Positions 1 to 61,914 of a stretch of DNA of 64,000 nt are shown here, one piece after another. Position 1 is the first letter of the stretch. Each line of letters begins with the position of its first letter. The notes beneath the pieces are model-generated. The model searched no databases, had not been told where the DNA came from, and saw only the letters and a program-made list of their open reading frames with translations. The DNA lies in assembly GCA_015143295.1 (NCBI GenBank), contig CM026552.1:62180944-62244943 (forward strand), in the 5' to 3' direction. The stretch comes from Tetracentron sinense (taxonomy: Eukaryota > Streptophyta > Magnoliopsida > Trochodendrales > Trochodendraceae). The translations under genes were made by a program, and so were the position numbers.

Positions 1-42
1 GAGGAGCCTTTGGAGGAACCTCCCGTAGAGGGTTATCAGTAG
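1..42 (+). CDS. C-terminal end of the conserved LTR acidic small ORF (partial)
   Basis: The first 42 bases read in frame 1 as EEPLEEPPVEGYQ and stop. This is the C-terminus of the 39-residue small ORF seen whole at 13767-13886 and 35866-35985. The start and core lie outside the window. Function is unknown; see the entry at 49756-49896 for the family description. Confidence 0.5.
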   Translation, partial: EEPLEEPPVEGYQ

Positions 43-14219: not shown

Positions 14220-14395
14220 TTGTGAGATGTACTTGTGAGATGCCTTGAGAGGGAAGGGAGACCCTTCTTTATGCAATGCACTTGAGAGGGAAGGGAGACC
14301 CTTCTTCATGATATGCATGTACTTGCGAGGGAAGGGAGGCCCTTCTTCATGATATGCACTTGTGAGTGAGGGGAGACCCCTCGTGGGATGTTGGT
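14220..14395. repeat. Variable repeat cassette 2 (GAGGGAAGGGAG type)
   Basis: Four copies of a unit with CTTG(A/T/C)GAG(G)GAAGGGAG(A/G)CCCTTCTT separated by ATGCACTTG-like spacers are seen. The same array type occurs inverted at 34797-35045. Confidence 0.75.
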
Positions 14396-21023: not shown

Positions 21024-21299
21024 TAGAACTACACATATGCAAGCCATGATGAAGCACGACACCCAACCAGTACTCTAGAGGCTTTGAACAATATTAGGTT
21101 TACAAGGAACCGGAAAATCATATCTCCTCGCAACCTTTGCATGATTTTCCTACAATGTTACCTATGGAACTTTATGTCTTCATCATATGAGACAGTAATT
21201 AATATAAATACCCTTTATAGTTGGTTGTGTGAATATGATGCTTATCTAATCAACATAGAAAAGTCTCTTATTGGCTTTTGAGGGCATATATGTCCAACA

Positions 21300-24789: not shown

Positions 24790-26790
24790 ACTAGATAAAT
24801 TTTGCGAATTGTGCTATTTATATCAGACCCTTTCTGAGCTCTGATCATGCTCAAATTTTTACTCTAAATTTCTCTTCCTAATCTGTAAATCATATCAAAT
24901 TTTCACTGCGATTTGACGGATGGATAGGATAGTATGAATTTCTAAAGGAAAACCTAGTATGCTGTTTTTAAGGCTAATAATACGGTATTCCTAATTATAG
25001 GGAACCTTTTTGAACTCTAATCATGTTCAAAATTTTACTTTAAATTTATCTTCCTAATTTTTAAAATGTATCAAAATTTCTCTGCGATCTGATGGTTGGA
25101 TTGTATGATATGAATTTCTAAAGGAAAACCTAGTATGCTGTTTTTAAGGCAAACAATACGGTTTTCCTAATTATAGGGAACCCTCCTGATTCCGATCATG
25201 CTATACAACATACCACATATTTATCTTCCTAATCTTTAAATTATATCAAAATTTCACTACGATCTGATGGTTGGATAAGATGATATGAATTTCTACAGGA
25301 AAACCTAGTCTGCTGTTTTTAAGGCTAACAGTACGGTTTTCCTAATTATGGGGAATCTTTCTGAGATCTGATCATGCTCAAATTTTTACTCTAAATTTAC
25401 CTTCCTAATATTTAAATCATATCAACATTTTACTACGATCTGATGGTTGAATTGGATGATATGAATTTCTAAAGAAAACCCAGTCTGCTATTTTTAAGGC
25501 TAACAATACGGTTTTCCTAATTATAGGGAACCTTTCTAAGCTCTGATTCATGTTCCAAATTTTACTCTAAATTAACCTTCCTAATCTGTAAATCATATCA
25601 AAATTTCACTGTGATCTGATGGTGGGATTGGATGATATGAATTTCTAAAAGAAAACCTAGTCTGTTGTTTTTAAGGCTAACAGTACGGTATTCCTAATTA
25701 TAGGGAACCTTTCTGAGCTCTGGTCATGCTCAAAATTTTACTCTAAATTTATCTTCCTAATCTGTACATCATATCAAAATTTCACTGCAATCGGATGGTT
25801 GGATTGGATGATATGAATTTCTAAAGAAAACCTAGTCTGCTATTTTTAAGGTTAACAGTACGGTTTTCCTAATTGTATGGAATCTTTTTGAGGTCTGATC
25901 ATGCTCAAATATTTACTCTAAATTAAAATTCCTAATCTGTAAATCATATCAAAATTTCACTACGCTCTGATGGTTGGATTGGATGATATGAATTTCTAAA
26001 GGAAAACCTAGTCTGCTGTTTTTAAGGCTAACAGTACGGTTTTCCTAATTATAGGGAACCTTTCTGAGGTCTGATCATTCTCCAAATTTTACTCTACATT
26101 TATCCTCCTAATCTGTAAATCATATCAAAATTTCATTGCGATCTGATGGTTGGATAGGATGATATGAATTTCTAAAGGAAAACCTAGTCTGTTTTTTTAA
26201 GGCTAACAGTGTTTTCCTAATTGTAGGGAACCTTTCTGAGGTCTGATCATGTTCAAATTCTTACTCTAAATTTATCTTCCTAATCTGTAAATCATATCAA
26301 AATTTCATTGCGATCTGAAAGTTTGATTATATAATATGAATTTCTAACGGAAAACCTAGTCTGCTGTTTTTAAGGCTAACAGTACGGTTTTCCTAATTAT
26401 AGGGAACCCTCCTGATCTCAGATCATGCCATAAATTTTACCACATATTTATCTTTATAATATGTAAATTATATCAAAATTTCACTGCGATTTGATGGTTG
26501 GATAGGATGATATGAATTTCTAAAGGAAAACTTAGTATGCTATTTTTAAGGCTAACAGTACGGTTTTGATCATTACAGGGAACATTCCTTATCTCAGATC
26601 ATACTCAGATTTTTACCATATTGCGATCTTCCTACTTTGTCAATCATATTAAAATTGCAATGAGATCTGATGGTTGAATTTGACAATATGAATTTCTAAA
26701 TAAAACCTAGTCTGTCGTTTTAGGAACAACAGTATGGTTTTGATAATTACAGAGCCCCTTCCTGATCTCAGATCTTTATTCAACATTATG
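24790..26790. repeat. About 11 tandem copies of a 175-bp unit inside an LTR
   Basis: The marker TGCTGTTTTTAAGGCTAACA recurs near 24959, 25137, 25311, 25486, 25661, 25837, 26012, 26188, 26361, 26537 and 26711. Each unit also carries CCTAATTATAGGGAACC, CTGATCATGCTCAAA, a TTTTACTCTAAATT block, TCACTGCGATCTGATGGTTGGAT and GAATTTCTAAAGGAAAACC. The units have diverged by roughly ten percent by eye, with the last two the most divergent. The period is close to one nucleosome repeat. Confidence 0.9.
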
Positions 26791-33706: not shown

Positions 33707-33890
33707 ACCGATCGCTCGGTCCATGGAGCGATCGATCGGTCCAAAACCGATCGCTCGGAGGCTATCGACTGGTCAAGATTTTTGTATGGAGAAATTTTCC
33801 AGAGAGTGAAATTTTAACCGATCGCTCGGTTATGAAACCGATCGATCGGTAGGCAACCGATCGATCGGTCATTAACACCGATCGCTCGGT
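33707..33890. repeat. GATCGATCGG palindrome cassette (cassette 1)
   Basis: About seven ACCGATCG(A/C)TCGGT motifs form two groups around TGGAGAAATTTTCCAGAGAGTG. It is the inverse of the arrangement at 5535-5719, as expected from the opposite strand. Confidence 0.75.
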
Positions 33891-34796
33891 ACTCGCGTTT
33901 TTGCAGAAAATTTAGAAGGGTGTTTTAGTCTTTTGAGTGGTTTACTCTTACCTTAAGAGTCTTGCCCGAGCCTTTAGGGCTTATTTGCAATGCTTAGAAG
34001 ATTGAGATTTAAGGAAAGGAGAAGAAGGCGATCCCTAACCTAGGGTTTGATTTTTGGAAGGGAAATCAAAGGGTTTGAGACCCTAGACCATCCTCAAGCA
34101 CGTTTTCCTTCAAGATCTCGGCTCAAGCTCGTGTGGAGCTCGTGTTCCAAGCTAGGGCAGCAACTCACGGTCGTTTTGGAAAGGGGGATTTCTTCCCCAC
34201 TTGATCAAGGTCGGTACTTTTTACTACCCTCCTAGTTATAGCCTCTCATTTCCTTATTCCTTCTTGTTTTCCTTCATATATATATATCTATATTATGAGA
34301 TGGGTGGTATGTATGGTAAATGGAGATGGATGTTGGCGAATGGATGCCGTGTGGATGATGTAATGAATGAAGGGGGAAGGGCATTGTACTAATAATAAAC
34401 ATACAAGTGTGATGTGAGTATAACCCACCTAGAAAAGCATGTTGTAGGGTTAATAAATGATGAATGTACCATGTTTGATGAAATGCCAAGGTGAATAAAA
34501 TGAATGATACATTAAGAAAATGCATGTTTAAGGTTTATGGAAATTGCTAGGGTTATGATAGAGTGATTGTTCGCTTTCCCTAAATGATGTCGATATTAAA
34601 TTGCCCAAATCATTGATGTTATGTGTTATGAATTACTCAAATGCCATATTTAATTCCAAATGCAAGTATGCACACGACCTCACGAGCACGCATACATGAC
34701 ATGATTTATCGAGGTTTTCAAGAATGGGATTTAGAGGTGGGGCATATCGTACGATATGTTTTGCCTCGCTTTTGGCAAGGACAAGACAATCATGCA

Positions 34797-35045
34797 TTTT
34801 CATAAGAAGGGTCTCCCTTCCCTCGCAAGTGCATACATAACATAAGAAGGGCCTCCCTTCCCTCGCAAGTACATCTCACAAGGACATCTCACAAGTGAAA
34901 GGACATGACATGAGCATTTAGGAAGAAGGGTCTCCCTTCCCTCACAAGTAGTTTACTTTTCCAAGCAAGCATGACAAGATATGGCATGACAAGCATAAGC
35001 ATTCTAGGAAGAAGGGTCTCCCTTCCCTCACAAGTAGTTTACTTT
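34797..35045. repeat. Variable repeat cassette 2 (GAAGGGTCTCCCTTCCCT type)
   Basis: Four copies of GAAGGG(T/C)CTCCCTTCCCTC(G/A)CAAGT are separated by CATGACA-rich spacers. It is the same array type as 14220-14395 on the other strand. Confidence 0.75.
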
Positions 35046-35188
35046 TTCAAGCAAGCATGACAAGACATGGCATGACATGCATGACACGATAAGATAAGAC
35101 AAACATGACATAAGACAAACATGACAAGTTTTCAAGCAAGGAAATGGTATTTTCAGTCAAGTCAAGTGCACGGTGTTTTCAAGGGTTT

Positions 35189-35834: not shown

Positions 35835-35855
35835 GCTGAGTATTCCATGCTCAGC
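35835..35855 (+). promoter_or_regulatory. Conserved LTR hairpin
   Basis: GCTGAG and CTCAGC arms flank loop TATTCCATG, ten bases before the small ORF at 35866. Confidence 0.6.
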
Positions 35856-36780: not shown

Positions 36781-36925
36781 TCAACAGAAATCGAAGTCAC
36801 GACTCCTATCTAAAGCACCATCGTCATGATAGTGATCCATGGAAGGCTCCGGGTCACGGTACTCTTCCTCGACCCAAGGTTCTTCGCCACACAAATCGAA
36901 TGGAACCCGAGCACCTGCCGATCAT
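36781..36925 (-). pseudogene. Conserved LTR small ORF with a one-base insertion after the start codon
   Basis: After the start the frame reads SAGARVPFDLCGEEPWVEEE then YRDPEPS and ends DFDFC. One extra A between ATG and TCG (ATG-A-TCGGCAGG) puts the start out of frame. Without it the ORF would be 47 codons long. The core and the aromatic-Cys end recall the 46-residue class. Confidence 0.45.
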
Positions 36926-36935
36926 AACAATATCG

Positions 36936-36956
36936 ACTGAGCATGGAATACTCAGT
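36936..36956 (-). promoter_or_regulatory. Conserved LTR hairpin with a compensatory base change
   Basis: The arms are ACTGAG and CTCAGT in place of GCTGAG and CTCAGC: both partners of the closing pair have changed, so pairing is kept. The loop is unchanged. Confidence 0.6.
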
Positions 36957-37871: not shown

Positions 37872-37925
37872 CAAAGGGTGATGGTTAAAGTCTTAAACAC
37901 CCTTAATGAAGAAAATCTGTGTATG

Positions 37926-38110
37926 ACCGATCGATCGGTGGTATGGACCGAGCGATCGGTGGCTTACCGGTCGATCGGTGTTATGACCGAGAGATCGGTC
38001 AAAAACACACTCTCTGGAATTTTTCCCCATACAAAAAAGTTGACCGTGCGACAGCTATCGAGCGATCGGTAGTTGACCGATCGATCGCAGGAAATGACCG
38101 AGCGATCGGT
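37926..38110. repeat. GATCGATCGG palindrome cassette (cassette 1)
   Basis: Seven ACCGA-CGATCGGT-type motifs lie in two groups around CACTCTCTGGAATTTTTCCCC. Confidence 0.75.
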
Positions 38111-41974: not shown

Positions 41975-41995
41975 ACTGAGCATGAAATACTCAGC
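41975..41995 (-). promoter_or_regulatory. Conserved LTR hairpin (one arm changed)
   Basis: The arms are ACTGAG and CTCAGC, so the closing pair is lost while five pairs remain. The loop has one change on the sense strand. Confidence 0.5.
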
Positions 41996-42339: not shown

Positions 42340-42500
42340 AGTGCCCTTGAACAACTTGAAGGGAGGGTGGTATAAACCTCATCTTTTGCGAAATATGGAA
42401 TAAAGCAACTTGAAGGGAGGGAAGTGTAAAACCCTCTCTTTTGCGAAAATGCAATAAAGCAACTTGAAGGGAGGAAAGTGTAAACCCTCTCTTGTGCAAA
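42340..42500. repeat. Variable repeat cassette 2 (CAACTTGAAGGGAGG type)
   Basis: Three copies of a roughly 58-bp unit (CAACTTGAAGGGAGG, GTGTAAACCCTCTCTT, TGC-AAAATG) are seen. Confidence 0.75.
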
Positions 42501-42897
42501 AATGTCATAAAGTAAACATGCATGCTTGGAGGTGCACTAACATCTTTCTTGACGTGTTCTTGTTCTTGTCAAAGCAAGGCAAAACATATCTTAAGATATG
42601 CCCTACCTCTATTTACCAACCCTTACGTTTGGCCTTGTCATGGTGTTCGTGAATCGAGAAAAAAACTTTGTTCTTAGAAAACCCGATAAACCATGCTTGA
42701 CTCGTGTATGCATGCCATGCTTGTGAGGTCATGTACATGCTATAGCTTGGAATTAAACATGACATATTGAATTTCATAGAATACAATTCATTAAAATAAG
42801 CACTCACTTTACCACATGCCGTTCTAGAAAGCAAGGTAACACACTAACATGAAACACTAGAAAATTCCATAAACCACTGTTGGCTCACTCCCTGCAG

Positions 42898-43645: not shown

Positions 43646-44420
43646 AGAATCCTGCCCTTCCGCTGGTAATCAACCCGACCTTCGTATCCAAGGGATCCCT
43701 CACCTAGCCTTGATACCCGGATAGAATCCACACCATCGGTTGTTCGATTTGCCGCTTCTTCAGTATGAAAATTCTGATGTGTGATCTTTTATCCCAGAAT
43801 AGGATCGAGAGTTTGAGTCCTCCTCCTTCTAGCTCTTAGAGTCTGTAGATAGAAAGGTACTCTTATGGAACCATAAATCATGCTTTTCTTGATTAATGAG
43901 TAATCCAATCCATCCATCATCCATGTGTGTTCATTATTGGTGAAATCCCTTCCCATTTTATTCATCACATCACATACACACGGCATCCATCGCCCAACAT
44001 CCATCTCCATTCATGCATCCCATCACATTGTATATTCATAATTTAGGGAAAACAAAGAAGAATGTAAGAAAAGGGAAAACATGACTAGGAGGGTAGCATA
44101 GGGTATTGACCTGAAAAAGGGAAGAAAACCCTTGAGAAATGTTGAGGAAGAACCTGCCAAGCTTGGAGAAGGAACTCCACACGTGCATGAGCTTTAGATT
44201 GAGAAATCCAAGCTTTGGGGACGATCTTGGGTTCTCAAACCCTTAATTTCTCTCAAGTTGATGCCCTAGGTGAAAAACCCCTTTCTCCTCTCTCACTCTC
44301 TCTCAAATATATTGCTAAGGGTGTTTATGAACACCCTTGGCTCGAGCCAACCCTTAAAAGTAAGGGTGGAGTAGCCAAAAGACCAAAAAACCTTAATGAA
44401 ATTTCTGCAAAACACGAAGG

Positions 44421-44564
44421 ACCGAGCGATCAGTGTTTTGACCGAGCTCTCAGTAGTGGACCGAGCGATCGGTGTTTTGACCGAGCTCTCGGTCAAAAAC
44501 CACCTCTCTGAAAGTTTTCCCCATACAAAATTTTGGACCAATCGATAGATACCGATCGCTCGGT
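44421..44564. repeat. GATCGATCGG palindrome cassette (cassette 1), reduced
   Basis: Four motifs of ACCGAGCGATC(A/G)GT and ACCGAGCTCTC(A/G)GT, the fixed CTCTCTGAAAGTTTTCCCC spacer and one ACCGATCGCTCGGT motif are seen. Confidence 0.7.
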
Positions 44565-45404: not shown

Positions 45405-45545
45405 TCAACAGTAATCTAAGTATGGCCACACGTCGAGGTCTCTATCTGCTTGCGATTGCCTCAGAATAGGAGGCTCTCTCTCCTTTGCATACTCTCCCTC
45501 AACCCAAGACTCGGGGTTGAGGTTATCCTCGGTACCTGCCGACAT
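45405..45545 (-). CDS. Conserved LTR small ORF, 46 residues
   Basis: It starts MSAGTEDNLNPE, has the core SWVEGEYAKEREPP and ends DLDVWPYLDYC. It shares length and C-terminus with 49756-49896, although most of the remaining LTR sequence is unrelated between the two. The end block WPYLDYC is fully conserved. Function is unknown. Confidence 0.5.
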   Translation of the reverse strand: MSAGTEDNLNPESWVEGEYAKEREPPILRQSQADRDLDVWPYLDYC

Positions 45546-45554
45546 GAAAGTACG

Positions 45555-45575
45555 GCTGAGCATGGAATACTCAGC
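45555..45575 (-). promoter_or_regulatory. Conserved LTR hairpin
   Basis: GCTGAG and CTCAGC arms flank the standard loop upstream of the small ORF on the minus strand. Confidence 0.6.
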
Positions 45576-46115: not shown

Positions 46116-47212
46116 CACTTTTCATGCTTTCTTGTTCCCTTGTGGTTTTTCCTTGTTCATGTTCATTTACTTGTATTTCACTAACTTGTCATATGCATGC
46201 ATTTTCCTAGTGAGCTACTTGTGATGGTTTCACCAATTCATATGCGTATTTGAAATGTAAACATTCATGGCATTTGTAATTAATAAACAACGAGTGATTT
46301 AGGGCAATTCATTTCATTCATTCAATAATTCGTGCATCTTATACCGTCTAATAACACATCATAACAAGTCCTGGAATTCACACTTATTCAAATTACATGC
46401 ATTTTTAAAATAAATGATGATTCCTAACAAGTCCCTTCATTCCATTCCATTTACATGCTATTTCATGTCCACACCACTACCATATTTCCTATTCATTTCT
46501 TTAATATTTTAATTTGAACATGCTTTAGTTTATAAATAAACCACATCATTTAATTCCTTAGAGTATCCCATACTCTTTTCATCAAACCTTACCCTCAATT
46601 CTTAGTAAATGTTCATGAATATTAATTTTTGCAAATTGGAGAGTGTATTTACACTCTCACATAAAAACCCCCTTCTTCGTGTCATTTCATTCATTCCTCT
46701 TTCTTTGAGACATTTCATCAAACACTAAGTGTGTACATTATGCAACAATGTCCTCCCCATTTTTTCATCATACCACACACCATCCATTGGCATCCATCGC
46801 CCAACCAAGCTCCATACACAATATTCCATCTCATATCATGACAAGTTTTGAGGAAAAGAATCAAAGAAACCTTAATAGAATCCTAACAAAGAGTTAATAG
46901 TTTGTTCTACCTTGAAAGATTGTGGAAAATACCTTAGGAGGTCATGGGAGCGAGATCCAAGCTTATGGAAGCTTTCCCAAACTCCAAAGTCGAAGATCCA
47001 CGCATCTACAACTTGCACGAGCTTGGTGGAAGCGATCTTTAAGGTTTGTGACTTGGATTTGGGTGAATCCAAGCCTTTGGAATGGATTTTGGGCTCACAA
47101 TCACTCAATCTCTCCTTGAGGGTGAAGGCTCTCTCTTGGAAATCCTCCCTCTCTCAATCTCTCAAGGTTTCTCCTTAGGTTTAGGGTAAGCCAAAACCCC
47201 CAAAAAGATCCT

Positions 47213-47222
47213 CTATTTATAG
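47213..47222 (-). promoter_or_regulatory. TATA box of the 45129-48217 LTR
   Basis: CTATAAATAG on the minus strand lies about 1.0 kb from the LTR start. The small ORF lies about 1.7 kb downstream, within the predicted transcript. Confidence 0.6.
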
Positions 47223-49260: not shown

Positions 49261-49471
49261 CCTAATTCAAGCCAAAATCTAAGTCAATCAAATACTGGAA
49301 ACCACATCAGAAGATTTCAATTTCATCTATATGCTAATTTATTCATTTGTTCTTAGTCGAATCTCAGACATTTGTTTGCCAACTTAGCAACATGCCTAGG
49401 TTTCCATTTTTTTATTCATTGCTTGATTTTGATTGATGCATTCACATTCATATTCATTGCATAATAGAATA
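49261..49471 (+). other. Leader of the second Tat element
   Basis: This T-rich sequence without ORF is interrupted by the intact Tekay element and continues at 59563-59596 and after 62201. Confidence 0.55.
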
Positions 49472-49755
49472 AAAACTGTCACACCCCAAAATACCCCCTA
49501 GGAGTTAAGGGATACTTTAGAGGTGACTACGTGTACCTGTCAAACCATCCTGTAATGCAAGAGGCTAAACATAACATAATACAATGATAATCAGAGCGCG
49601 GAATTAAACATAAGTGCGAAAGCATAAGCCAACTTTTTCTTTTCTTCTATTACTCCATATAGTATTCCAAGTTAACATATACTAAATACAATCAAAGTAA
49701 AGGTGGACATGCCCACCTATCAAAATACAAAAAGGAACTTTCTAACACTGTCCTC

Positions 49756-49896
49756 TCAACAGTAGTCGAGGTATGGCCACACATCCAAGTCCCCATCCTC
49801 TTGAGACTGCCATGGGGTAGGTGGCTCCCTCTCCTCTACATACTCCTCCTCGACCCAAGGCTCGGGGTCGAGGACATCCACAGTACCTGCCGACAT
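49756..49896 (-). CDS. Conserved LTR small ORF, 46 residues (reference copy)
   Basis: It starts MSAGTVDVLDPE, has the core PWVEEEYVEEREPP at residues 13-26 and ends DLDVWPYLDYC. The start is chosen at the ATG in the block ATGTCGGCAGGT, present in nearly all LTRs here. About a third of the residues are Asp or Glu, and there is no signal peptide or membrane segment. The ORF lies 280 bp before the LTR end, so the 5' LTR copy would be in the RNA leader about 0.6 kb upstream of gag. Eight other complete or nearly complete copies in the window keep the frame, while surrounding LTR sequence diverges. I know of no named family. A structural RNA with fortuitous coding is the alternative. Confidence 0.55.
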   Translation of the reverse strand: MSAGTVDVLDPEPWVEEEYVEEREPPTPWQSQEDGDLDVWPYLDYC

Positions 49897-49905
49897 AAAA
49901 GTACG

Positions 49906-49926
49906 GCTGAGCATGGAATACTCAGC
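49906..49926 (-). promoter_or_regulatory. Conserved LTR hairpin
   Basis: GCTGAG and CTCAGC arms flank a nine-base loop, ending ten bases upstream of the small ORF start. Confidence 0.6.
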
Positions 49927-50172
49927 GAGTACAAACTACTAGCTAACCATAACAATAGCGAAAGCATAACAACAGTGAGCAATACAAGATATTAATTTAA
50001 AGCAATAGTGAAAGCATAAGATACATAGCCATATCTTGACATGCGTGTATGAATGCAAAAACCTCGGTAAAACTCATGTCTCGGAAACCCTTTTCGTGTC
50101 TCGGTCAAATCATGTATGTGTGTCGTGTCTTGTCTTGTATTTCATGTCTTGATTTGTTCTTGACTTGTATAC

Positions 50173-50586
50173 TTGTGAGCCAGAGGCTAGCACCCTTCCT
50201 TGGGCTACCAACCTCCTTGTCATGTTCTCTCTTGCATTTCACTTGTGAGCCAGAGGCTAGCACCCTTCCTGGGGCTACCAACCTCCTTGTCATGTTCTTA
50301 TTCCGTTTCTCTTGTGAGCCAGAGGCTAGCACCCTTCCTGGGGCTACCAACCTCCTTGTCATGTTCTTGTTCCATTTCTCTTGTGAGCCAGAGGCTAGCA
50401 CCCTTCCTGGGGCTACCAACCTCCTTGTCATGTTCTTGATTCATTTCACTTGTGAGCCAGAGGCTAGCACCCTTCCTGGGGCTACCAACCTCCTTGTCCT
50501 GTTCTTGATTCATTTCTCTTGTGAGCCAGAGGCTAGCACCCTTCCTTGGGCTACCAACCTCCTTGTCATGTTCTTGATTCATCATA
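50173..50586. repeat. 69-bp tandem array, six copies (3' LTR)
   Basis: The marker TTGTGAGCCAGAGGCTAGC recurs every 69 bases from 50173. Copies differ mainly in the spacer after CATGTTCTT. The 225-codon ORF and several antisense ORFs across it exist only because 69 is divisible by three. Confidence 0.92.
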
Positions 50587-51550
50587 TACAAATACAATCT
50601 TGGAAAACCCGGTTTCATGCATGCATGCGTGCTTGTGTGCTTGTCAATGGTGGTAATCATGATGACATACTTAAAAGGGGCGGATCACATGACTATGGCA
50701 TTTCAATCCTTAACATAGTGGTATGAAAATTTAGGCAACATATAGCACATTTGAGCAATTTATCATTTCTAAGAACATTTACACAATTTCTATTTCCATT
50801 TTCTTCATTAATTCCATTTATCCCTTGTTTAGTCATTTTATCAAACACCCGGTGGGCCACATTTCTTAGTCCTTCCATTTCCCTTATTTAGTGCGTATTT
50901 TTCATCAAGACATCAAGGTACATTTGTTATTTGTAAAGTGCCCATCTTCCATTTTCCATTTCACACATCACACAACATCCATACGGCATCCAATCGCCTC
51001 AATCGACATCCCATCCACACATCCATACCTTTTTCTTATCTTGTTTATATTTAGTGGAGATGATACATTTTATAAGGAAGTAAACATACTACCAAGAGTC
51101 ACATTTCACAATAGAAAATCTAGACTATTGCTAAAGAAAGTTAGTAGAGTGTACTAACCTTGAATCAAGGCTTGATCCTTAGTAGAAACCTTGATTGAAG
51201 CTCCAACTTGCAAGAAGAAAGATCCTTGCTTGAAGAAGGCTTAGTGTGGGGAAAACAACCTTGAAGTTGCCGTAGAAAACGCTGCCCTACCTTGGAGAAG
51301 GAGTCCCACACGAACTTGAGGTTGGATTTTCGAAATCCAAGCTTTTAGGGATGCTCTTGGGGTGCTTAAACCATTGATCTTACTCTCAAATGGAAAGGGG
51401 GTTTTGGAACCCTAGTTTCTTCTCCCTCTCTCTCAAATATCCCTAAGTGTTGTAAGTGAGGCCTCAAAGGGTCGAGCAAACCCTTATGGGTAAGGGTTTA
51501 ACACCCAAAAGACGAAAAAGCCCTTAATGAAAATTCTGAAAAACACGAAG

Positions 51551-51735
51551 ACCGAGCGATCGGTGGTTATGACCGATCGATCGGTTGCCTACCGAGCGAT
51601 CGGTGTTTATGACCGATCGACCGGTCAAAAACTCACTCTCTGGAAAATTTCCCCATACAAAATTTCTGACCGTGCGATAGCTACCGATCGATCGGTTATG
51701 GACCGATCGATCGCTGACTGGACCGAGCGATCGGT
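51551..51735. repeat. GATCGATCGG palindrome cassette (3' LTR)
   Basis: Four motifs, the spacer CTCTCTGGAAAATTTCCCC and three more motifs are seen, including two perfect ACCGATCGATCGGT-type palindromes. Confidence 0.75.
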
Positions 51736-51947
51736 CTTCTGTATGTCTGGACTGTTTTGACCATATCTTTTGACTCGCTCGTCGGATTTTGACGATTCAA
51801 CTTGCGTTGGGTTCGTCTTTCGAAAACGAACATTTCTGACGTTTCAGAATTTCCGATTTCTCCCTTATTTATTAATTTGACTACAAAAACGGCCAATTAG
51901 CTACGAAGGTGCCATTCATTAAAGATGAAAAAGTCCGGGGTGCTACA

Positions 51948-51960
51948 TTCTCCCCCCCTT
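51948..51960 (-). other. Polypurine tract of the intact element
   Basis: AAGGGGGGGAGAA on the minus strand abuts the 3' LTR start TGTAGCACCCC and primes plus-strand synthesis. Confidence 0.92.
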
Positions 51961-52057
51961 ACAAAAATTTCGTCCTCGAAATTTGGACAATGCGTGCTTT
52001 ACAATTTAAACAACTTAGCATAACAATTTGAAACAAAATTACAAGTCATACATAAGA

Positions 52058-55000
52058 TCATTCAAACAACTCGGGGTGCTTTGCCTTGACTTCGGCCTCA
52101 TGTTCCCATGTAGCCTCTTCTCGAGCGTGATGTTGCCATTGCACGAGAACTAGCGGAATAGTCTTGTTGCGAAGTACTTGGTCTCTTCGATCCAAAATAT
52201 GAACCGGCTTCTCAACCAAAGTGAGATCCTCTCGAATCTCAACCGGATCAAGCTCGATGACGTGAGAAGGATCCGGGATGTACTTCCGAAGCTGGGAGAT
52301 ATGAAACACGTTGTGGACCGCCGCCATGTGAGCGGGCAAAGCAACACGGTAAGCCACCTCGCCAACTCGAGTAATGATCTCGAACGGACCCACATATCTC
52401 GGGCTAAGCTTGCCTCTCTTCCCGAATCGCATAACACCTTTGGTCGGTGAAATCCTTACAAACACAAAATCACCGACTCGGAATTCAAGATCCCTCCTTC
52501 GGTTGTCGGCATAGCTTTTCTGTCTATCTTGTGCGGTCTTTAACCTCTCCCGGATAAGCTTGACCCTATCCGCGGTTTGTTCAATTAACTCGGGGCCTAA
52601 AATCTTTCTTTCTCCCACTTCATCCCAATACAACGGGGATCTACAACTCCTTCCGTACAAAGCCTCGAAAGGCGCCATTTGTATGCTTTCTTGATAACTA
52701 TTGTTGTAAGCGAATTCCACCAAAGGTAGGTGATCTTCCCAACTTCCCTTGAAGTCTAGCATACATGCTCGGAGCATATCTTCAATAACCTGATTCACCC
52801 TCTCGGTTTGCCCGTCGGTCTGTGGGTGGAAAGCTGTGCTAAAGTCTAATCGGGAGCCCATTGCACCTTGAAAACTTTTCCAAAACCTGGATGTGAATCT
52901 TGGGTCTCTATCCGACACAATACTCACTGGCACCCCATGCAATCGGACTATTTCTTTGATGTATAGTTCTGCTAACTGGTTGGAGTTGAATGTAGTCCGG
53001 TATGGTAAGAAATGAGCGGACTTCGTGAGTCTATCAATAACTACCCATATAGCATCGGTCTTCTTGACCGTCTTCGGCAATCCCACGATGAAGTCCATAG
53101 AGATATGTTCCCATTTCCACTCGGGAATAGGGAGAGACTGCAAAAGACCCGCTGGTCTCAAATGCTCTGCTTTCACCTGTTGGCATACCAAACACCGTGC
53201 CACATACTCCGCAACCTCCCTCTTCATGTTTCGCCACCAAAAGTGACTCTTGAGGTTCCGGTACATCTTTGTCCCCCCGGGATGCACTGTATACTTAGAC
53301 CGGTGAGCTTCGTCCATAATCTCTCTCCGAAGGTCTGCATTGGCTGGGACACAAAGCCTTCCCTTGAATGTAATAGCACCTCGGCTAGTGAGAGAGAAGT
53401 CCGTACTACCCTTGGCCACTTCCTTATCCCGGAAAGCCAACAAGTCAGTGTCTGTGGCTTGATACTCCTGGATCAAGTCTATAAGGTACGGCCGAACTGT
53501 AACATTTGCCAAAACCGGACTGCGGACAGAGTCGTTCACACTGATGTCTAGATTTGCCAAATCGTCTAACAGTCTCCATTCCCGCACCAACATGTGAGCC
53601 AACAACCCCGATGGCTTCCTACTCAGAGCGTCTGCCACCACATTTGCTTTTCCCGGGTGATATTGGATAGTGCACTCGTAGTCCTTTAAGAACTCAATCC
53701 AACGCCGTTGTCGTAAGTTTAACTCTTTTTGGGAAAAGAGATACTTGAGGCTCTTGTGGTCCGTGTACACATAGAACTCCACCCCGTACAGATAATGTCG
53801 CCAAATTTTAAGTGCAAACACGACCGCCGCAAGCTCCAAGTCGTGAGTGGGGTAGTTCTTTTCATGCTCTTTCAACTGCCTTGATGCATAGGCAATGACT
53901 TTCTTGTGTTGCATTAGGACACACCCGAGTCCGACGTGCGAGGCATCACTATACACCTCATACCCAAAAGGTCCAGATGGCACAGTAAGGACAGGGGCTG
54001 TGGTGAGGCGTTTCTTCAACTCTTGGAAACTTACTTCACATCGGTCACTCCAACTGAACTTTGCATTTTTCCTTGTCAAGTAGGTGAGAGGTGCAGCCAG
54101 ACTGGAGAATCCCTCCACAAATCTCCGGTAGTAGCCTGCCAATCCGAGGAAACTACGTATCTCCGTGACGCTCTTGGGCCTCTCCCAACTCATGACTGCC
54201 TCAACCTTGGCTGGATCTACAGAAATGCCCTCGGCCGACACCACGTGTCCAAGAAATGCGACCTTCTCTAACCAGAACTCGCACTTACTTAATTTGGCAT
54301 ATAGCCTATGCTCTCTCAACATCTCCAGAGCAAGGCGGAGGTCTCGCGCGTGATCTTCCCGTGTCTGGGAATACACCAAAATGTCATCAATGAATACAAT
54401 CACGCATCGATCCAAGTAAGATCGGAACACCCGGTTCATCAAATCCATGAATGCCGCCGGTGCATTCGTCAGCCCAAAAGGCATGACAAGGAACTCGTAA
54501 TGCCCATACCGAGTCCTGAAAGCCGTCTTCTGAACATCTTCCGCCTTGATCCTTAATTGGTGATACCCCGATCTAAGATCAATTTTGGAGAAGAATCTCG
54601 CTCCCTTCAGTTGGTCAAACAAGTCGTCTATCCTTGGCAAGGGATAACGATTCTTGATAGTTACCTTGTTCAACTGACGGTAGTCTATACACATCCTCAT
54701 AGACCCGTCCTTCTTCTTCACAAAGAGAACCGGAGCTCCCCACGGAGAGACACTTGGTTGGATGAAACCAAGTTGTTGTAACTCCTCAATCTGCTTCTTT
54801 AATTCTTCAAGCTCTATAGGGGCCATTCTATATGGTGCCCTTGAAATCGGAGCGGTACCCGGAGCAAGCTCTATAGCGAATTCAATCTCTCTATCAGGAG
54901 GTAATCCGGGAAGTTCTTCCGGGAACACATCTAAGAACTCACTCACAACTGGAATAGCCGATGAGTTTTGTGCTTCTGGGTGTGCTATACTCAAGGCTGC

Positions 55001-55389
55001 GAGGCGAGCAATGTCCCTCTCTCTTAATCCTCGGAAGGGAAAAGGCTTACCCCCTTCCTGCTTGAAATTCACCATCTTTTCAAAACACGCAACATGCCCG
55101 TGATGGCTTGCCAACCAATCCATACCAAGAATGACGTCAAAGTCTAAATCTTGGAAACCCAGGACGATAAGGTCGGCTAACAATTCATTCTCCCCCACTT
55201 GAACCACACTATCCCTGAATACCTTATCCGTATCAACCGACTTGCCGAGTGGAGTTGCAATGGTCAACTCCCGTTCCAACGGAGTAGCCTCAGTCGAAAA
55301 GCCCTTTGCAAAACTTGGGGAGACAAAAGAGTGAGTGGATCCTGTGTCTATCAACACTCGAGCGAGACATTCGTTCACTAATAAAGCGC
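52058..55389 (-). CDS. pol: Tekay pol polyprotein (protease, RT, RNase H, integrase, chromodomain)
   Basis: The frame is open for about 1110 codons. Numbering from GTG at 55378: protease DTG at 11-13; RT about 205-365 with FIDD (Asp 331 and 332); RNase H with Asp478, Glu515 and Asp540; integrase zinc finger His692, His699, Cys729, Cys732; DDE core Asp762, Asp823, Glu859; chromodomain about 1056-1106 ([23 protein letters not shown]). All catalytic residues are present. There is no ATG at the start: the frame opens after a TAG at 55406-55408 and the protease needs upstream residues. Splicing of an intron (55390-55522) would join it in frame to gag. The polyprotein would be cut by its own protease in virus-like particles, with integrase steered to chromatin by the chromodomain. 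Confidence 0.95.
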
Positions 55390-55522
55390 CTGTGCGATTA
55401 AGTAACTAATATAAGTAGATTTCAAATAATAACAAGCATCATACATAGGTAACCCTCAGTATAACTAATCGCATAACAAACCACAAAATTTTATACAACT
55501 TAAAATCAAAATTCTCGCGTAC
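55390..55522 (-). other. Candidate 133-nt intron between gag and pol
   Basis: On the minus strand CAAG|GTACGCGAG is the donor and TTAATCGCACAG|GC the acceptor. The interval is U-rich and contains stops in both the gag and the pol frame. The intron is in phase 1, and removal joins gag codon Gln to Gly-Ala-Leu-Leu-Val at the front of protease, giving a junction like that of uninterrupted relatives. Frameshifting is the alternative. No transcript evidence is available here. Confidence 0.55.
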
Positions 55523-56759
55523 CTTGCACGACATCGTCGGATGCACGTGCGTCTCTTTCCGATAGAGCAAAAACTCTACCCTGAGTGGCTGGGCGAGGAG
55601 GCCGGGCAGACTGTGAGGCCCTCGAAGCCTGAGAAGAGCTAGGCTGAGATGTCTGCCTAATCGGGGGCCTGCTCCCCGAAGACTGAGCTGGCATTAGACG
55701 TCGGGGACAATCCCGAATCATGTGGCCCTGGTCGCCACAATGAAAACAGCCTCCTGTAGCCTTCCGACATTCCCCTGCTGGATGCCTCCTTCCACAAAGG
55801 GTGCAGACATCATGTGAATAAGTGGGAGGAGTATAACCCGTAGCCTGAGTCACTGCGGGGCGAGGAGCATACGAGGTAGCCGGGCGAAAAGCCGGTGGAG
55901 AAAAAGGGCGGGGGGCCTGTGGTGCCGAGTACCTCCTCTGTGACTGAGCCAGCCCGGCGGACTGATAAGACATAGTCCTAGCTCTCTTCTCCCCTGAACT
56001 ACTAGACTGTCCCTTCTCTATTCCTCTTCTCTTAAAGAACTCTTCGGAATTAGACTCGGCCAACAATGCTTTGTCCACAACTTCTGAATATGTCTCATGT
56101 CGGAATATTGAGACACGATCCTTGAGGTAGGCCTTCAACCCCCTCTCGAATTTCCGGGCCTTCATAGCCTCGGTAGCTATCATGTGTGGAGCAAATCGAG
56201 ATAGCTCTGAGAACTTGGCTTCGTAAGCCGCTACAGACATATTACCTTGCTCCAAGGTAATAAATTCAATTTCTTTCTTTTCTTTCATCCCAACCGGAAA
56301 GTATTTCTTGTAGAAAACGTCCAAGAATTCTCCCCATGTCCATTCTTGGCCTTGCCGGGTCAACTCTCGGGTCCGAAGTGCAGACTTCCACCAATGGTCG
56401 GCCTCGCCTTCAAGCATAAAGGCAGCCCATGTGACCCTCTCTACTTCCGTAGGTGCCAAAACCGAGAATATCTTCTCAAGTTGCCGAATCCAACCCTCGG
56501 CAATAAGTGGATCAATGCTTCCACAAAAAGTTGGAGGCCTCATCCTCCGGAAAGCTTCTATCCCGGCTTGGGCTCGATTAGGAGGAGCCGGTATAAGTGC
56601 CGCATTAGGCGGGGTGGCCGGTTGCCTTGCCGCCAACATAGCCAAGGTCTCGGCTATGGATGCGAATGCTTGGGCAAAGTCGGGTTGATCATCACCCGAT
56701 GGAGCATCACCTCCATTACCCCTCGTGTTGTACCCGCGACCCCGAGTATTGCGTCTCAT
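55506..56759 (-). CDS. gag: Tekay Gag (417 residues unspliced)
   Basis: The start is the ATG at 56759 (MRRNTRGRGYNTRGNGG); codons further upstream in frame are not ATG. The retrotransposon Gag core spans about residues 75-240 (EADHWWKSALR at 119-129). A Pro/Ser-rich linker and two cysteine motifs follow, CTLCGRRHPAGEC at 319-331 and CFHCGDQGHMIRDC at 338-351. The last three codons (REF) would be intron sequence if the proposed splice occurs, so spliced RNA would give Gag-Pol and unspliced RNA Gag. It forms the particle and binds element RNA. It is intact, unlike the copy at 1070-2353. Confidence 0.95.
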   Translation of the reverse strand: MRRNTRGRGYNTRGNGGDAPSGDDQPDFAQAFASIAETLAMLAARQPATPPNAALIPAPPNRAQAGIEAFRRMRPPTFCGSIDPLIAEGWIRQLEKIFSVLAPTEVERVTWAAFMLEGEADHWWKSALRTRELTRQGQEWTWGEFLDVFYKKYFPVGMKEKKEIEFITLEQGNMSVAAYEAKFSELSRFAPHMIATEAMKARKFERGLKAYLKDRVSIFRHETYSEVVDKALLAESNSEEFFKRRGIEKGQSSSSGEKRARTMSYQSAGLAQSQRRYSAPQAPRPFSPPAFRPATSYAPRPAVTQATGYTPPTYSHDVCTLCGRRHPAGECRKATGGCFHCGDQGHMIRDCPRRLMPAQSSGSRPPIRQTSQPSSSQASRASQSARPPRPATQGRVFALSERDARASDDVVQGTREF

Positions 56760-57070
56760 GATTTCTCCTGAGAACGACAATACAACATGAGTCTAACTTG
56801 GATACGCATTTAGCACAATTTCGCAATTCACTTAATACATATTCATCAAGCACATTTAATAAGTACAACACAAATAATGTACACATGGTATATAACACAA
56901 TAGCATAACATACAATCCGTGTTCCTAGCGTAGGACTCTATGTTCGGTTGAAGTTCAACCCATTTTGACTAAGACTAACTTGTTAGTCTACACTTGGAAT
57001 ACAACTCTCTAAGGTGATTCTAATACCTTGTTCAATCATCTAAGTGACCCTATGGACTCTAATGCCTAGA
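56760..57070 (-). other. Leader of the intact element between primer site and gag
   Basis: There are about 310 bases with no ORF of note and no tandem repeat. They include CCTAGCGTAGGACTC, also seen in modified form in element A near 2512-2530 (CCTAGCGAAGCTACG). Confidence 0.7.
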
Positions 57071-57082
57071 GCTCTGATACCA
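57071..57082 (-). other. Primer binding site of the intact element
   Basis: TGGTATCAGAGC on the minus strand lies four bases after the 5' LTR and is complementary to initiator tRNA-Met. Confidence 0.93.
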
Positions 57083-57365
57083 CTTCTGTCACACCCCAAA
57101 ATACCCCCTAGGAGTTAAGGGATACTTTAGAGGTGACTACGTGTACCTGTCAAACCATCCTGTAATGCAAGAGGCTAAACATAACATAATACAATGATAA
57201 TCAGAGCGCGGAATTAAACATAAGTGCGAAAGCATAAGCCAACTTTTTCTTTTCTTCTATTACTCCATATAGTATTCCAAGTTAACATATACTAAATACA
57301 ATCAAAGTAAAGGTGGACATGCCCACCTATCAAAATACAAAAAGGAACTTTCTAACACTGTCCTC

Positions 57366-57506
57366 TCAACAGTAGTCGAGGTATGGCCACACATCCAAGT
57401 CCCCATCCTCTTGAGACTGCCATGGGGTAGGTGGCTCCCTCTCCTCTACATACTCCTCCTCGACCCAAGGCTCGGGGTCGAGGACATCCACAGTACCTGC
57501 CGACAT
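57366..57506 (-). CDS. Conserved LTR small ORF, 46 residues (5' LTR copy)
   Basis: It is identical to 49756-49896. In this LTR the ORF would lie in the 5' leader of the genomic RNA, upstream of the primer site and about 0.6 kb upstream of the gag start, so ribosomes scanning from the cap could meet it first. Confidence 0.55.
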   Translation of the reverse strand: MSAGTVDVLDPEPWVEEEYVEEREPPTPWQSQEDGDLDVWPYLDYC

Positions 57507-57515
57507 AAAAGTACG

Positions 57516-57536
57516 GCTGAGCATGGAATACTCAGC
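57516..57536 (-). promoter_or_regulatory. Conserved LTR hairpin (5' LTR copy)
   Basis: It is identical to 49906-49926. Confidence 0.6.
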
Positions 57537-57782
57537 GAGTACAAACTACTAGCTAACCATAACAATAGCGAAAGCATAACAACAGTGAGCAATACAAGAT
57601 ATTAATTTAAAGCAATAGTGAAAGCATAAGATACATAGCCATATCTTGACATGCGTGTATGAATGCAAAAACCTCGGTAAAACTCATGTCTCGGAAACCC
57701 TTTTCGTGTCTCGGTCAAATCATGTATGTGTGTCGTGTCTTGTCTTGTATTTCATGTCTTGATTTGTTCTTGACTTGTATAC

Positions 57783-58196
57783 TTGTGAGCCAGAGGCTAG
57801 CACCCTTCCTTGGGCTACCAACCTCCTTGTCATGTTCTCTCTTGCATTTCACTTGTGAGCCAGAGGCTAGCACCCTTCCTGGGGCTACCAACCTCCTTGT
57901 CATGTTCTTATTCCGTTTCTCTTGTGAGCCAGAGGCTAGCACCCTTCCTGGGGCTACCAACCTCCTTGTCATGTTCTTGTTCCATTTCTCTTGTGAGCCA
58001 GAGGCTAGCACCCTTCCTGGGGCTACCAACCTCCTTGTCATGTTCTTGATTCATTTCACTTGTGAGCCAGAGGCTAGCACCCTTCCTGGGGCTACCAACC
58101 TCCTTGTCCTGTTCTTGATTCATTTCTCTTGTGAGCCAGAGGCTAGCACCCTTCCTTGGGCTACCAACCTCCTTGTCATGTTCTTGATTCATCATA
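57783..58196. repeat. 69-bp tandem array, six copies (5' LTR)
   Basis: It is identical to the array at 50173-50586. Confidence 0.92.
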
Positions 58197-59160
58197 TACA
58201 AATACAATCTTGGAAAACCCGGTTTCATGCATGCATGCGTGCTTGTGTGCTTGTCAATGGTGGTAATCATGATGACATACTTAAAAGGGGCGGATCACAT
58301 GACTATGGCATTTCAATCCTTAACATAGTGGTATGAAAATTTAGGCAACATATAGCACATTTGAGCAATTTATCATTTCTAAGAACATTTACACAATTTC
58401 TATTTCCATTTTCTTCATTAATTCCATTTATCCCTTGTTTAGTCATTTTATCAAACACCCGGTGGGCCACATTTCTTAGTCCTTCCATTTCCCTTATTTA
58501 GTGCGTATTTTTCATCAAGACATCAAGGTACATTTGTTATTTGTAAAGTGCCCATCTTCCATTTTCCATTTCACACATCACACAACATCCATACGGCATC
58601 CAATCGCCTCAATCGACATCCCATCCACACATCCATACCTTTTTCTTATCTTGTTTATATTTAGTGGAGATGATACATTTTATAAGGAAGTAAACATACT
58701 ACCAAGAGTCACATTTCACAATAGAAAATCTAGACTATTGCTAAAGAAAGTTAGTAGAGTGTACTAACCTTGAATCAAGGCTTGATCCTTAGTAGAAACC
58801 TTGATTGAAGCTCCAACTTGCAAGAAGAAAGATCCTTGCTTGAAGAAGGCTTAGTGTGGGGAAAACAACCTTGAAGTTGCCGTAGAAAACGCTGCCCTAC
58901 CTTGGAGAAGGAGTCCCACACGAACTTGAGGTTGGATTTTCGAAATCCAAGCTTTTAGGGATGCTCTTGGGGTGCTTAAACCATTGATCTTACTCTCAAA
59001 TGGAAAGGGGGTTTTGGAACCCTAGTTTCTTCTCCCTCTCTCTCAAATATCCCTAAGTGTTGTAAGTGAGGCCTCAAAGGGTCGAGCAAACCCTTATGGG
59101 TAAGGGTTTAACACCCAAAAGACGAAAAAGCCCTTAATGAAAATTCTGAAAAACACGAAG

Positions 59161-59345
59161 ACCGAGCGATCGGTGGTTATGACCGATCGATCGGTTGCCT
59201 ACCGAGCGATCGGTGTTTATGACCGATCGACCGGTCAAAAACTCACTCTCTGGAAAATTTCCCCATACAAAATTTCTGACCGTGCGATAGCTACCGATCG
59301 ATCGGTTATGGACCGATCGATCGCTGACTGGACCGAGCGATCGGT
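59161..59345. repeat. GATCGATCGG palindrome cassette (5' LTR)
   Basis: It is identical to 51551-51735. It lies in the sense 5' part of the LTR, that is, on the promoter side. Confidence 0.75.
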
Positions 59346-61914
59346 CTTCTGTATGTCTGGACTGTTTTGACCATATCTTTTGACTCGCTCGTCGGATTTT
59401 GACGATTCAACTTGCGTTGGGTTCGTCTTTCGAAAACGAACATTTCTAACGTTTCAGAATTTCCGATTTCTCCCTTATTTATTAATTTGACTACAAAAAC
59501 GGCCAATTAGCTACGAAGGTGCCATTCATTAAAGATGAAAAAGTCCGGGGTGCTACAAAAACCCTTTCATTTTGTAGTTGGATCCTCTAAGCTTACTGTA
59601 AGCACATAAATTTACTGCCTTTCCTCCCCTCTCAACTCTAAGTGTCGAGACAAGGTCCGAGAGTAGAGGAATAACGCTAAATTTATTCTCAGAGTCGCCA
59701 CCTACTTAGGGGAAGTAGGATCCCGAGATAAAATCCAAAATAAGGGGTCTACGGTCCAGAGTAGTCTAGGTAAGAGATCCATTTAGGTTCTGGGGAAGGG
59801 GTTAGGCACCCCAGGACCTCCATCCACTGATGGTAACCTATTCATTAGGTCTAAGCCAAACATTTAAAATCCCTAAAAATTTCCTAAACAATTATTAATT
59901 TTGCTAATCAAACACTAATCAATATGGGGTGTAAAAATTTTATCTTTGGTTGGGGTCGAACCCTGGTTTGGGCTGCCTACTTATCCGGTTAGTCGGAATC
60001 AGACCCTAATAGTAGTTCGGGGCGGTGACTGTTTTTATACTCGTTTCGGAGTGTGGTCACTTCCAACTCGTGCTTGAGTTGGGGGAAGCGGGGTTGAGAT
60101 TTATGAATCTCACTCTGGGATTTGGTTGCGTAGCTAGTTGCTCATGGGGGAGCTCTAGGGGGCGTTCATTTATTAGGGTAAGTCCTTTTTGAATTTTGTG
60201 GGTTTTTTGAATGTTTTTGTTGTTTTGTATTTTTTGATTTTTTTTTGTATTGTTTTTAACTAACGGGGTAGGCAAGTTGTTTAGGGTTGAATATCCACCT
60301 AAGTGCCCAAGGTAGGCAAAAATGAAAAATAAGCTACGGCCTACTCTTATAATTGCACATACACACAAGAATAAAATTACCAATAAATTACAAGAGGACG
60401 ACCAAATTAAGAATCAAACTTGCTGGGCTTAAACCAATTGGGCCTATAGGTTTAGGCCTAATGACCTTCACCTTCTCAAAAAATCTACAGTGGCCTAAAG
60501 TTTTTATTTATTAAATTAATACAGATTACAAGGAAGCTAATAATTAACAGTTAATCAGAAATTAAACTAAAGGCCGGTGCAATATTACTGTTCCAAGGCC
60601 CCTTAACCCATGATGGAAATTGGTCAAACCGGCTTTGGCCCAGTAATAGAACCCGACATTATAACAAAGATCCAATGAATCAAACACGATTAAAATTAAT
60701 TAAGGGGGCTACAGATCATATACCAAAGACACACACAGGGGGCCACTAGTGCCCTGGTCTTGGACAAAACTCTTGGATTCAAAGTTTTTGAACAAGACCA
60801 GACTAATGGGAATTAGTCTTAAATTGATCAAACCAAAATCGAGCAATCTAAAAAATATATATCAGTCCTCTTTCCCTCTTCGGATTTTAAACTAAGTACG
60901 GGAACAAAGGGTATTGGCCATACTCTGATTCTTGGTTTTGATCAAATCAAGATTCCCCCCATCTCACCAGATTTGAAAGAGAACAATCTTCTCCAAACTC
61001 TAAGCCAAACACAAAGAGAAAGGGATCTTGATCAATGCTAGGGATCAAAAATAAAGCTCATCAAATTATAGATCCGACCAAGATTAAATAAACCCAACTC
61101 CGATTAAAACAAACTCAGGCTTATTTAGGGTCTTGGCCGGAACCTAGATCTGGTTATGGATGACCTCTTCTCTCTTTGCGGCTCTAACAAACATACAAAG
61201 AAAAGGAATCCGACCACTGTCGAATTCCAAAACACCATAAATTAATAAACAAATAATGAATATAAAAAGGAGAAGAAGAAACATACCTGATCGTGATGAG
61301 GCAAGAAGGAAGAAGATCGATGGGGGAGATAGAAAACTAGCGATGAAGTCGCCGGATCATATCTGGCCTGAGGGAGGACTGATGGTGAGAGATTGGAATG
61401 TTGGCTATGATTGGAGCTTTAGCAATGCAGGTGGATCTGCTACTGCAAGATCTGGCCGGAGAAAGATCCGAGATAAAATCGGCCATATCGAAGATCGGAT
61501 CTAAACGGTGATGAAGCTCGCAGGAATTGCTGTTGTTCGAAGAAGATCCTGATTAAGGAAGATGAAATGCTGGCCGGAACTGAAATCGAAGCTCGTCGGA
61601 TTGCTGTAGTCGGAGGTGGCATCGGATATGAGTTGGACGGACTGGACTGGTGGTGGTAAACTGCTGGAGTTCATCGGAACTTAATGGCGCCGGAGCTGGA
61701 TCGAACTCACCTGAAGTGCTACAGTCGAGACGGATGGTGACCAGAAGTGTGGTGGTGATCGAAATCAATGGAGGTGGCTGCTCAAGTGTGGCTGAAGGCT
61801 ACTGATTTCTAAAATGGAGGAGCGAGGGAAAAGGATTAGGAAAGAAAAACTCACAAGATTGCTTGCAGCTGACAGAAAATGGATCCCCCTCCGATTTTAA
61901 CCCTTTCTCCTGGC

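Follow-up and report, generated by a model that had tools for sequence, protein, structure and literature searches.

Ty3-type chromoviruses are widespread and abundant in plants, and the proteins known from them are Gag, Pol, and, in some elements, the products of large extra ORFs. Accessory proteins of other retroelements include the superantigen of mouse mammary tumour virus, a type II membrane glycoprotein of ~320 aa encoded in the U3 part of the LTR, and lentiviral Rev, a basic, RNA-binding protein made from spliced RNA. Among Tekay elements, a 5' additional ORF of 402 aa is reported for 500 of 523 sunflower elements of group 2, and RIRE3, RIRE8, and Retrosat-2 of Poaceae are given as other Tekay elements with 5' additional ORFs (PMC11728184). 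A survey across plants counted ORFs of at least 250 codons (PMC6317226), and a review of additional ORFs covers the internal region (PMC7264820)—with the scopes that these two sources describe, a selected microprotein encoded in an LTR would lie outside both, escaping surveys that require 250 codons or are confined to the internal region. Among the best matches listed from the literature that we searched (titles and abstract openings, with few subscription papers), no earlier description of a short ORF inside such LTRs was found, and six peptide and DNA words matched no paper there. As for splicing, a 2025 review describes plant LTR retrotransposons as generally intronless, with Ogre and EVADE as notable exceptions, and reports spliced short GAG RNAs for EVADE and BARE1 and an intron for Ogre (PMC12786077); a sunflower survey recorded spliced isoforms of two other expressed elements, with no Tekay among those that it gives as expressed (PMC7730604).

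We analysed a 64,000-nt stretch of Tetracentron sinense DNA (the window), in which an earlier note, made from the sequence alone, had reported nine copies and one fragment of a small acidic ORF inside LTRs. Six-frame translation recovered the frame at all 10 places, inside LTRs of a Ty3-type chromovirus and on the element strand (plus for two of the full copies, minus for the others; Table 1). The eight full copies, each uninterrupted between its ATG and its stop codon, begin with MSAG (MSVG once) and encode 39–51 aa, also as described. In the single copy with a broken frame, that of class D, one extra base after the ATG shifts the start codon out of frame. Because the copies at 49756 and 57366 are identical and belong to the two LTRs of one element, eight of the nine are distinct. 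When all 2730 six-frame fragments with a length of 15 aa or more were searched with a profile, the nine copies came out on top, and no other fragment fell below an E-value of 3.4. The peptides are acidic throughout (pI 4.05–4.56, net charge about -7 to -14) and carry 3–8 aromatic residues and 0–4 K+R in a length of 39–51 residues; their middle is conserved and their C-termini vary by class. In this composition they resemble acidic activation segments.

Table 1. Coordinates of the small ORF copies, their host elements, and the associated predicted signals in the window
Feature	Position	Strand	Comment
Small ORF, class A, 46 aa, acidic	49756..49896	-	3' LTR of element A
Small ORF, 46 aa, same as 49756 copy	57366..57506	-	5' LTR of element A
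Small ORF, class A, 46 aa	7087..7227	+	
Small ORF, class A, 46 aa, diverged	45405..45545	-	
Small ORF, class C, 39 aa	13767..13886	-	
Small ORF, class C, 39 aa	35866..35985	+	
Small ORF, class C, 40 aa	41842..41964	-	MSVG; PL replacing PW
Small ORF, class B, 51 aa	3777..3932	-	5' LTR of element B
Small ORF, class D, one-base-shifted ATG	36781..36925	-	Frame open 46 codons past ATG
Fragment, class C (39-aa type)	1..42	+	Final 13 codons + stop; window edge cuts copy
Hairpin 1 core CTGAGTATTCCATGCTCAG	49907..49925	-	10 nt upstream of ATG
Hairpin 1 block, minus-strand copies	57517-57535, 45556-45574, 13898-13916, 41976-41994, 3944-3962, 36937-36955	-	
Hairpin 1 block, plus-strand copies	7058-7076, 35836-35854	+	
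Hairpin 2 (AGGTGG..CCACCT in class A)	49701..49718	-	Downstream of stop codon
3' LTR of element A, 2471 bp	49477..51947	-	99.96% identity to 5' LTR
5' LTR of element A	57087..59557	-	
gag ORF of element A, from first ATG	55506..56759	-	Retrotrans_gag, zf-CCHC
pol open frame of element A	52058..55405	-	Protease, RT, RNase H, integrase, chromodomain-like end
Primer binding site TGGTATCAGAGC	57071..57082	-	Just past 5' LTR of element A
gag open frame of element B	1322-2422		First ATG 2353
Predicted splice donor CAAG/GT, element A	58767..58772	-	Last exon base 58769
Predicted splice acceptor CTCAG/GA before gag, element A	56766..56772	-	Last intron base 56768
Predicted splice donor, element B	5177	-	gag ATG at 2353
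Canonical TATA box CTATAAATAGAGG, LTR of 45405 copy	47210..47222	-	312 nt before AG/GT donor candidate
Weak TATA-like ATAAGGG, element A	59091..59097	-	Aligns with CTATAAAAGGG in class D LTR (from 37870)

Element A, on the minus strand, is flanked by a 5-bp target duplication, AAAAC, and its LTRs read TGTAG..GTGACA at their ends on the element strand, followed by the primer site TGGTATCAGAGC, which we take to be of the initiator-tRNA-Met type; LTR ends, primer site, and duplication are those of a plant chromovirus, as is the Ty3 order of gag, RT, RNase H, and integrase with a chromodomain-like C-terminal end. The RVT_1, RT_RNaseH, RVP_2, Integrase_H2C2, and Retrotrans_gag models all scored above their own cut-offs, the Chromo model (E 2.8e-4, 21.2 bits) fell below its curated cut-off of 25.1, and the rve model (21.4 bits) fell below its cut-off of 32.6. 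Judged by domain content, the host element is a plant Ty3-type chromovirus. The LTR length of 2.5 kb is compatible with that of beet Tekay elements, and the gag and pol frames of this young element lie ~100 nt apart (55406–55505), whereas beet Tekay is described with one continuous gag-pol ORF (PMC3605345).

The LTR outside the ORF had been thought largely unalignable, which did not hold—LTRs of different classes can be matched over their first ~700 nt and again over their last ~500 nt. The middle of class A LTRs contains 69-bp tandem repeats (5.9 copies at 50172–50582 and at 57782–58192, and a third array of 4.4 copies at 6506–6811), and three class C LTRs have different tandem repeats in a comparable place (14236–14379, 34909–35082, 42352–42512). 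LTRs of all four classes (A to D) have, within their first ~400 nt, palindromic-type repeats reading CCGATCGATCGG or near it (59160–59343, 51550–51733, 5667–5716, 33707–33891, 37921–37999, 44420–44486); these are possibly transcription factor or methylation sites in U3. The window also holds an array of ~11 copies of a 176-bp satellite-like unit (24829–26774), a LINE-type long open frame (RVT_1, RVT_3, zf-RVT; 17239–20742), and plus-strand Ty3-type pol pieces split into separate open frames (21239–22983).

The small ORF is protein-coding and under purifying selection at the protein level. A codon model on a fixed tree of eight sequences gave an omega of 0.27 (p 6e-8 against 1), with values of 0.22 without the MSAG codons and 0.23 without copy D; by class, omega was 0.24 for A (p 0.004), 0.33 for C (p 0.009), and 0.27 for B and D alone (p 0.066). 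Synonymous differences between copies exceed non-synonymous ones, in agreement with the earlier observation that silent changes predominate. Four pairwise comparisons, which have sequences in common and are not independent, illustrate this: A49756 against A45405 (pS 0.53, pN 0.14, Fisher p 2.6e-5), C13767 against C35866 (pS 0.26, pN 0.03, p 9.7e-4), C13767 against C41842 (pS 0.55, pN 0.17, p 5.6e-4), and C35866 against C41842 (pS 0.42, pN 0.18, p 0.016). In two of these four pairs, the sub-windows with the largest excess of pS over pN overlap the ORF in its frame, most of them extending beyond the ORF end and containing stops; in the other two the largest excess lies elsewhere, in sub-windows with stop codons. 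Pointing the other way, pairwise omegas for copy D are 0.43–0.87 in seven of eight comparisons and 0.16 with C13767, and the closest pair, A49756–A7087, gives 0.62 on 7 changes.

In the same four alignments, the ORF contains a single 3-nt indel event, present in two pairs; of the 47 indels outside the ORF, a few of which sit at segment ends, 30 have a length not divisible by three. Between classes, indel phase is not independent evidence, because the alignment there is protein-guided. With omega well below 1 and no frameshift within the ORF in the four pairs, the suggestion of an LTR-encoded microprotein made in the earlier note survives—what we observe is an ORF within an LTR under protein-level selection, as in an accessory LTR-encoded retroelement protein.

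A single-sequence protein search with the small ORF peptide gave no match. A profile of the eight window peptides recovered P0001 at E 0.19 from ENA-derived predicted proteins, and the profile with P0001 added recovered P0002 (6.9e-11), P0003 (1.7e-8), and P0004 (2.1e-5); a fifth match of this second profile, at E 8.9, was discarded. A profile of only three outside relatives, themselves found via window sequences, also gave the nine copies as its best matches in the window (E 9e-10 to 0.03; next 0.18). The relatives read MAGEQLDQCAP.PWVEEEYVEEPAED...DQWPYPGHY or near it, and thus combine the core of class C with the WPY end known from class A. In P0001 and P0002, Leu stands at the usual place of the ATG, and an in-frame Met lies four codons upstream. 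The sequence upstream of MAGEQ in P0003 is YPLSIRILS, of which YPLSI is the class C translation of the left arm of a hairpin that precedes the ORF (hairpin 1, below), so that this hairpin is, judging from the protein, probably present there too. Pfam gave no match for 12 family members, a PDB profile search gave a single match (E 0.11) judged to be chance, and scans of viral_contigs and genome_contigs gave no confirmed relative, as expected for collections that are viral and prokaryotic.

Hairpins flank the ORF on both sides. Upstream, the block CTGAGTATTYCATGCTCAG, containing hairpin 1, is found in all nine copies 10–11 nt before the ATG (0.03 matches expected by chance); in eight copies the hairpin folds at -9.7 to -11.9 kcal/mol (z-scores -2.9 to -5.4), and its identity in the four pairs is 92–100%, compared with 75–92% for the ORF. 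Because its distance from the ATG differs by one base, its frame differs between class A and class C, and hairpin 1 is therefore not itself coding. An ATG in the hairpin loop is in frame in class A only and was rejected as the start. Covariation analysis of hairpin 1, which varies too little for it, found one both-side pair change, with 146 of 500 shuffles reaching the score. Downstream of the stop codon, hairpin 2 shows both-side changes in four of six pairs between classes with the stem preserved; 2 to 10 of 500 shuffles reach four measures of this pattern and 181 of 500 reach the number of pair types, and in the alignment copy D fails three of the six pairs and copy B one. A search of 49400–59700 with Rfam returned nothing at gathering score. 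The near-invariance of hairpin 1 and the paired changes in hairpin 2 might suggest that the whole block is conserved as RNA or DNA, carrying signals for splicing, packaging, dimer formation, or strand transfer, with the open frame a by-product; however, constraint within the ORF is on amino acids, with silent sites changing several times faster, and relatives from elsewhere retain the peptide. We regard such a non-coding origin of the conservation as exceedingly improbable.

TATA boxes had been noted ahead of the ORF in two LTRs, but boxes near the ORF are not common to the copies, and better promoter candidates are found much further upstream, ~1.6 kb away in element A, with counterparts at the corresponding position of other LTRs. 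Among seven LTRs, the box is canonical in two (class D and the LTR of the 45405 copy), weak in element A, and degenerate in the others. These TATA positions predict a transcription start in element A ~30 nt downstream of ATAAGGG. In the aligned 5' part of the LTRs, AG/GT followed by NNNTAC (slash, predicted cut) is invariant in six of six. The 290 nt before AG/GT contain 1, 1, 1, 1, 0, and 0 ATGs in these six LTRs, and the 290 nt after it contain 17, 21, 24, 21, 16, and 15, or, in total, 4 over 1740 nt upstream of the donor against 114 over 1740 nt downstream of it. When the upstream stretches were dinucleotide-shuffled, 11.7 ATGs were expected against the 4 observed (P 0.006), with only class D, one of the six single LTRs, below 0.05 for upstream depletion; dinucleotide composition explains a large part of the scarcity of ATGs in the first exon. 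The LTR of the 45405 copy, excluded from the six-LTR alignment and inspected afterwards, reads TTCAAG/GTAGAA (last exon base of this donor candidate, 46911); the 290 nt upstream of the cut hold 2 ATGs and the 290 nt downstream hold 18. This LTR has no NNNTAC after AG/GT, and it does not match the first exon of element A significantly. The LTR pieces at 7087 and 1–343 end short of the donor region. For one class C copy, that at 41842, the donor context in the LTR, CTTTTTCAG/GT, is also acceptor-like.

A candidate acceptor stands immediately before gag. In both readable gag leaders, those of elements A and B, CTCAG/ lies 8 or 9 nt before the gag ATG (CTCAG/GAGAAATC in A and CTCAG/GAGTTGATC in B), and the LTR-to-gag sequences of the two elements are unlike in length and content. 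Splicing from 58769 to 56767 in element A would delete the primer site and 80 of 86 pre-gag ATGs, and a spliced RNA would have just one ATG from the assumed start to gag. We accordingly predict a leader intron that takes in the larger part of the LTR together with the primer binding site and the leader, and that ends 8–9 nt before gag. The small ORF would sit inside this intron of the gag mRNA and probably needs an RNA of its own. Its GC content is 0.51–0.57, compared with 0.30–0.39 in both flanks, in eight of eight copies, and it thus resembles an exon inside an AT-rich intron.

This predicted arrangement bears on the other suggestion of the earlier note, that of a translated leader ORF controlling gag. 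A conserved uORF on the gag mRNA, whose translation or nascent peptide tunes gag in cis, would fit the place of the small ORF on the sense strand between LTR promoter and gag and the presence of hairpin 1 immediately 5' of it, and in pararetroviruses a leader structure with short ORFs controls translation (PMC5902531). Against this, the predicted splice between the conserved donor and the acceptor just before gag would take the small ORF off the gag mRNA, and in the unspliced leader of element A 57 ATGs lie between the assumed start and the small ORF ATG, so that a scanning ribosome would rarely reach it and a third RNA or an internal promoter would be required. A uORF that acts by its position alone does not require conserved amino acids, and a stalling peptide usually depends on a fixed C-terminus, unlike the class-specific C-termini seen here. 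We do not favour control of gag in cis and consider it unlikely.

For a third RNA, a candidate acceptor is GCTCAG, where hairpin 1 ends; with its use, the small ORF would become the first ORF. A CTCAG/C acceptor has a poor +1 base. An alternative, GCAG/GT within the MSAG codons, looks better but would remove the ATG; with this acceptor, the small ORF would be one exon, internal or last, of a longer protein whose start codon lies in an exon further upstream. Consistent with such an exon, ATGTCGGCAGGT is nearly constant, third positions included, copy D, P0001, and P0002 are open yet have no ATG at the usual place, and an upstream T-rich run and CTNA motifs fit an acceptor, T-rich runs and CTNA motifs being among acceptor sequence preferences. 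On the contrary, the frame fused through the conserved donor has no ATG in six of six LTRs over the up to 60 codons inspected and meets a stop codon directly at the junction in classes B and D. We rejected the fusion of exon 1 to GCAG/GT through this donor on these grounds, and a longer protein in general appears to us quite improbable.

The reading that we prefer, for which we judge the balance to be roughly even, is that alternative splicing of an LTR transcript yields the RNA for an acidic microprotein that is encoded in the LTR and acts in trans. Transcription would start ~500 nt into the LTR, and a short, almost ATG-free first exon would end at the conserved donor. Splicing of this exon to the acceptor 8–9 nt before gag would cut out what remains of the LTR along with the primer binding site and ~80 ATGs, and so form the mRNA for Gag and Pol, whereas the unspliced RNA, with its leader retained, would be the genome. 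A third RNA, which we infer for the microprotein, would have the first exon joined to an acceptor in the hairpin block just 5' of the ORF ATG, and might be a short LTR transcript with its 3' end downstream of the ORF. Its product would be a strongly acidic, probably disordered peptide acting in trans via the PWVEEEYVEE core, most likely by binding a host nuclear protein and aiding transcription or export of element RNA; the disorder, the binding partner, and the step helped are a guess on our part. The amino-acid constraint, conserved centre, and variable C-termini together point to a binding peptide and not a stalling peptide.

If the leader splicing is real, it makes export of the full-length RNA a problem, and the peptide might then work in the manner of Rev or Cer1 CERV, as a factor for nuclear export or splicing balance that frees unspliced genomic RNA from the nucleus; in the Ty3-like element Cer1 of C. 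elegans, CERV, translated from a spliced mRNA, serves genomic RNA export (PMC10309623). The small ORF peptides, however, have no basic RNA-binding stretch (0–4 K+R in 39–51 residues), so that an export factor of this kind would need a partner, and we think this role improbable indeed. The preferred microprotein can also be taken further, though only tentatively and with doubt prevailing: each LTR might be a complete small spliced gene, with promoter, first exon, intron, coding exon, and 3' hairpin, such that every insertion, solo LTRs included, could make a trans-acting acidic microprotein that regulates the host or the element family; gag, for its part, would become translatable once the same leader is spliced. 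The predicted leader intron, if true, would change the view of how chromoviruses are expressed and may be as interesting as the small ORF.

Among known systems, the pararetroviral shunt has a short ORF 5' of its hairpin, whereas the ORF here is 3' of hairpin 1, a further point against gag control by a leader ORF. The mouse mammary tumour virus superantigen and the small ORF product can be likened, by description, as accessory proteins encoded inside an LTR, and they are not known to resemble each other otherwise. Lentiviral Rev is basic, whereas the small ORF peptide is acidic. The Ogre intron lies within gag-pol. The EVADE splice likewise falls within gag-pol, whereas the one predicted here falls in the leader and ends at the gag start; in EVADE, BARE1, and Ogre, as predicted here, splicing parts translated RNA from genomic RNA (PMC12786077). 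Cer1 CERV is an accessory protein of a Ty3-like element made from spliced RNA, as we propose for the microprotein, and must exceed 200 residues, since it is phosphorylated at S214 (PMC10309623). Additional ORFs described in plant LTR retrotransposons likewise provide an extra protein beside gag/pol in many copies (PMC7264820; PMC6317226). Finally, like the 5' additional ORFs of Tekay elements, the small ORF is a conserved, sense-strand accessory ORF in the 5' part of a chromovirus, with biased amino-acid content; going by description, it is set apart from the sunflower ORF, which is 402 aa long and proline-rich with a nuclear localisation signal, by its acidic product and its place in the LTR, and where Tekay 5' additional ORFs are marked by ~400 aa and a basic nuclear localisation signal, it has 39–51 aa and a pI of 4.05–4.56.
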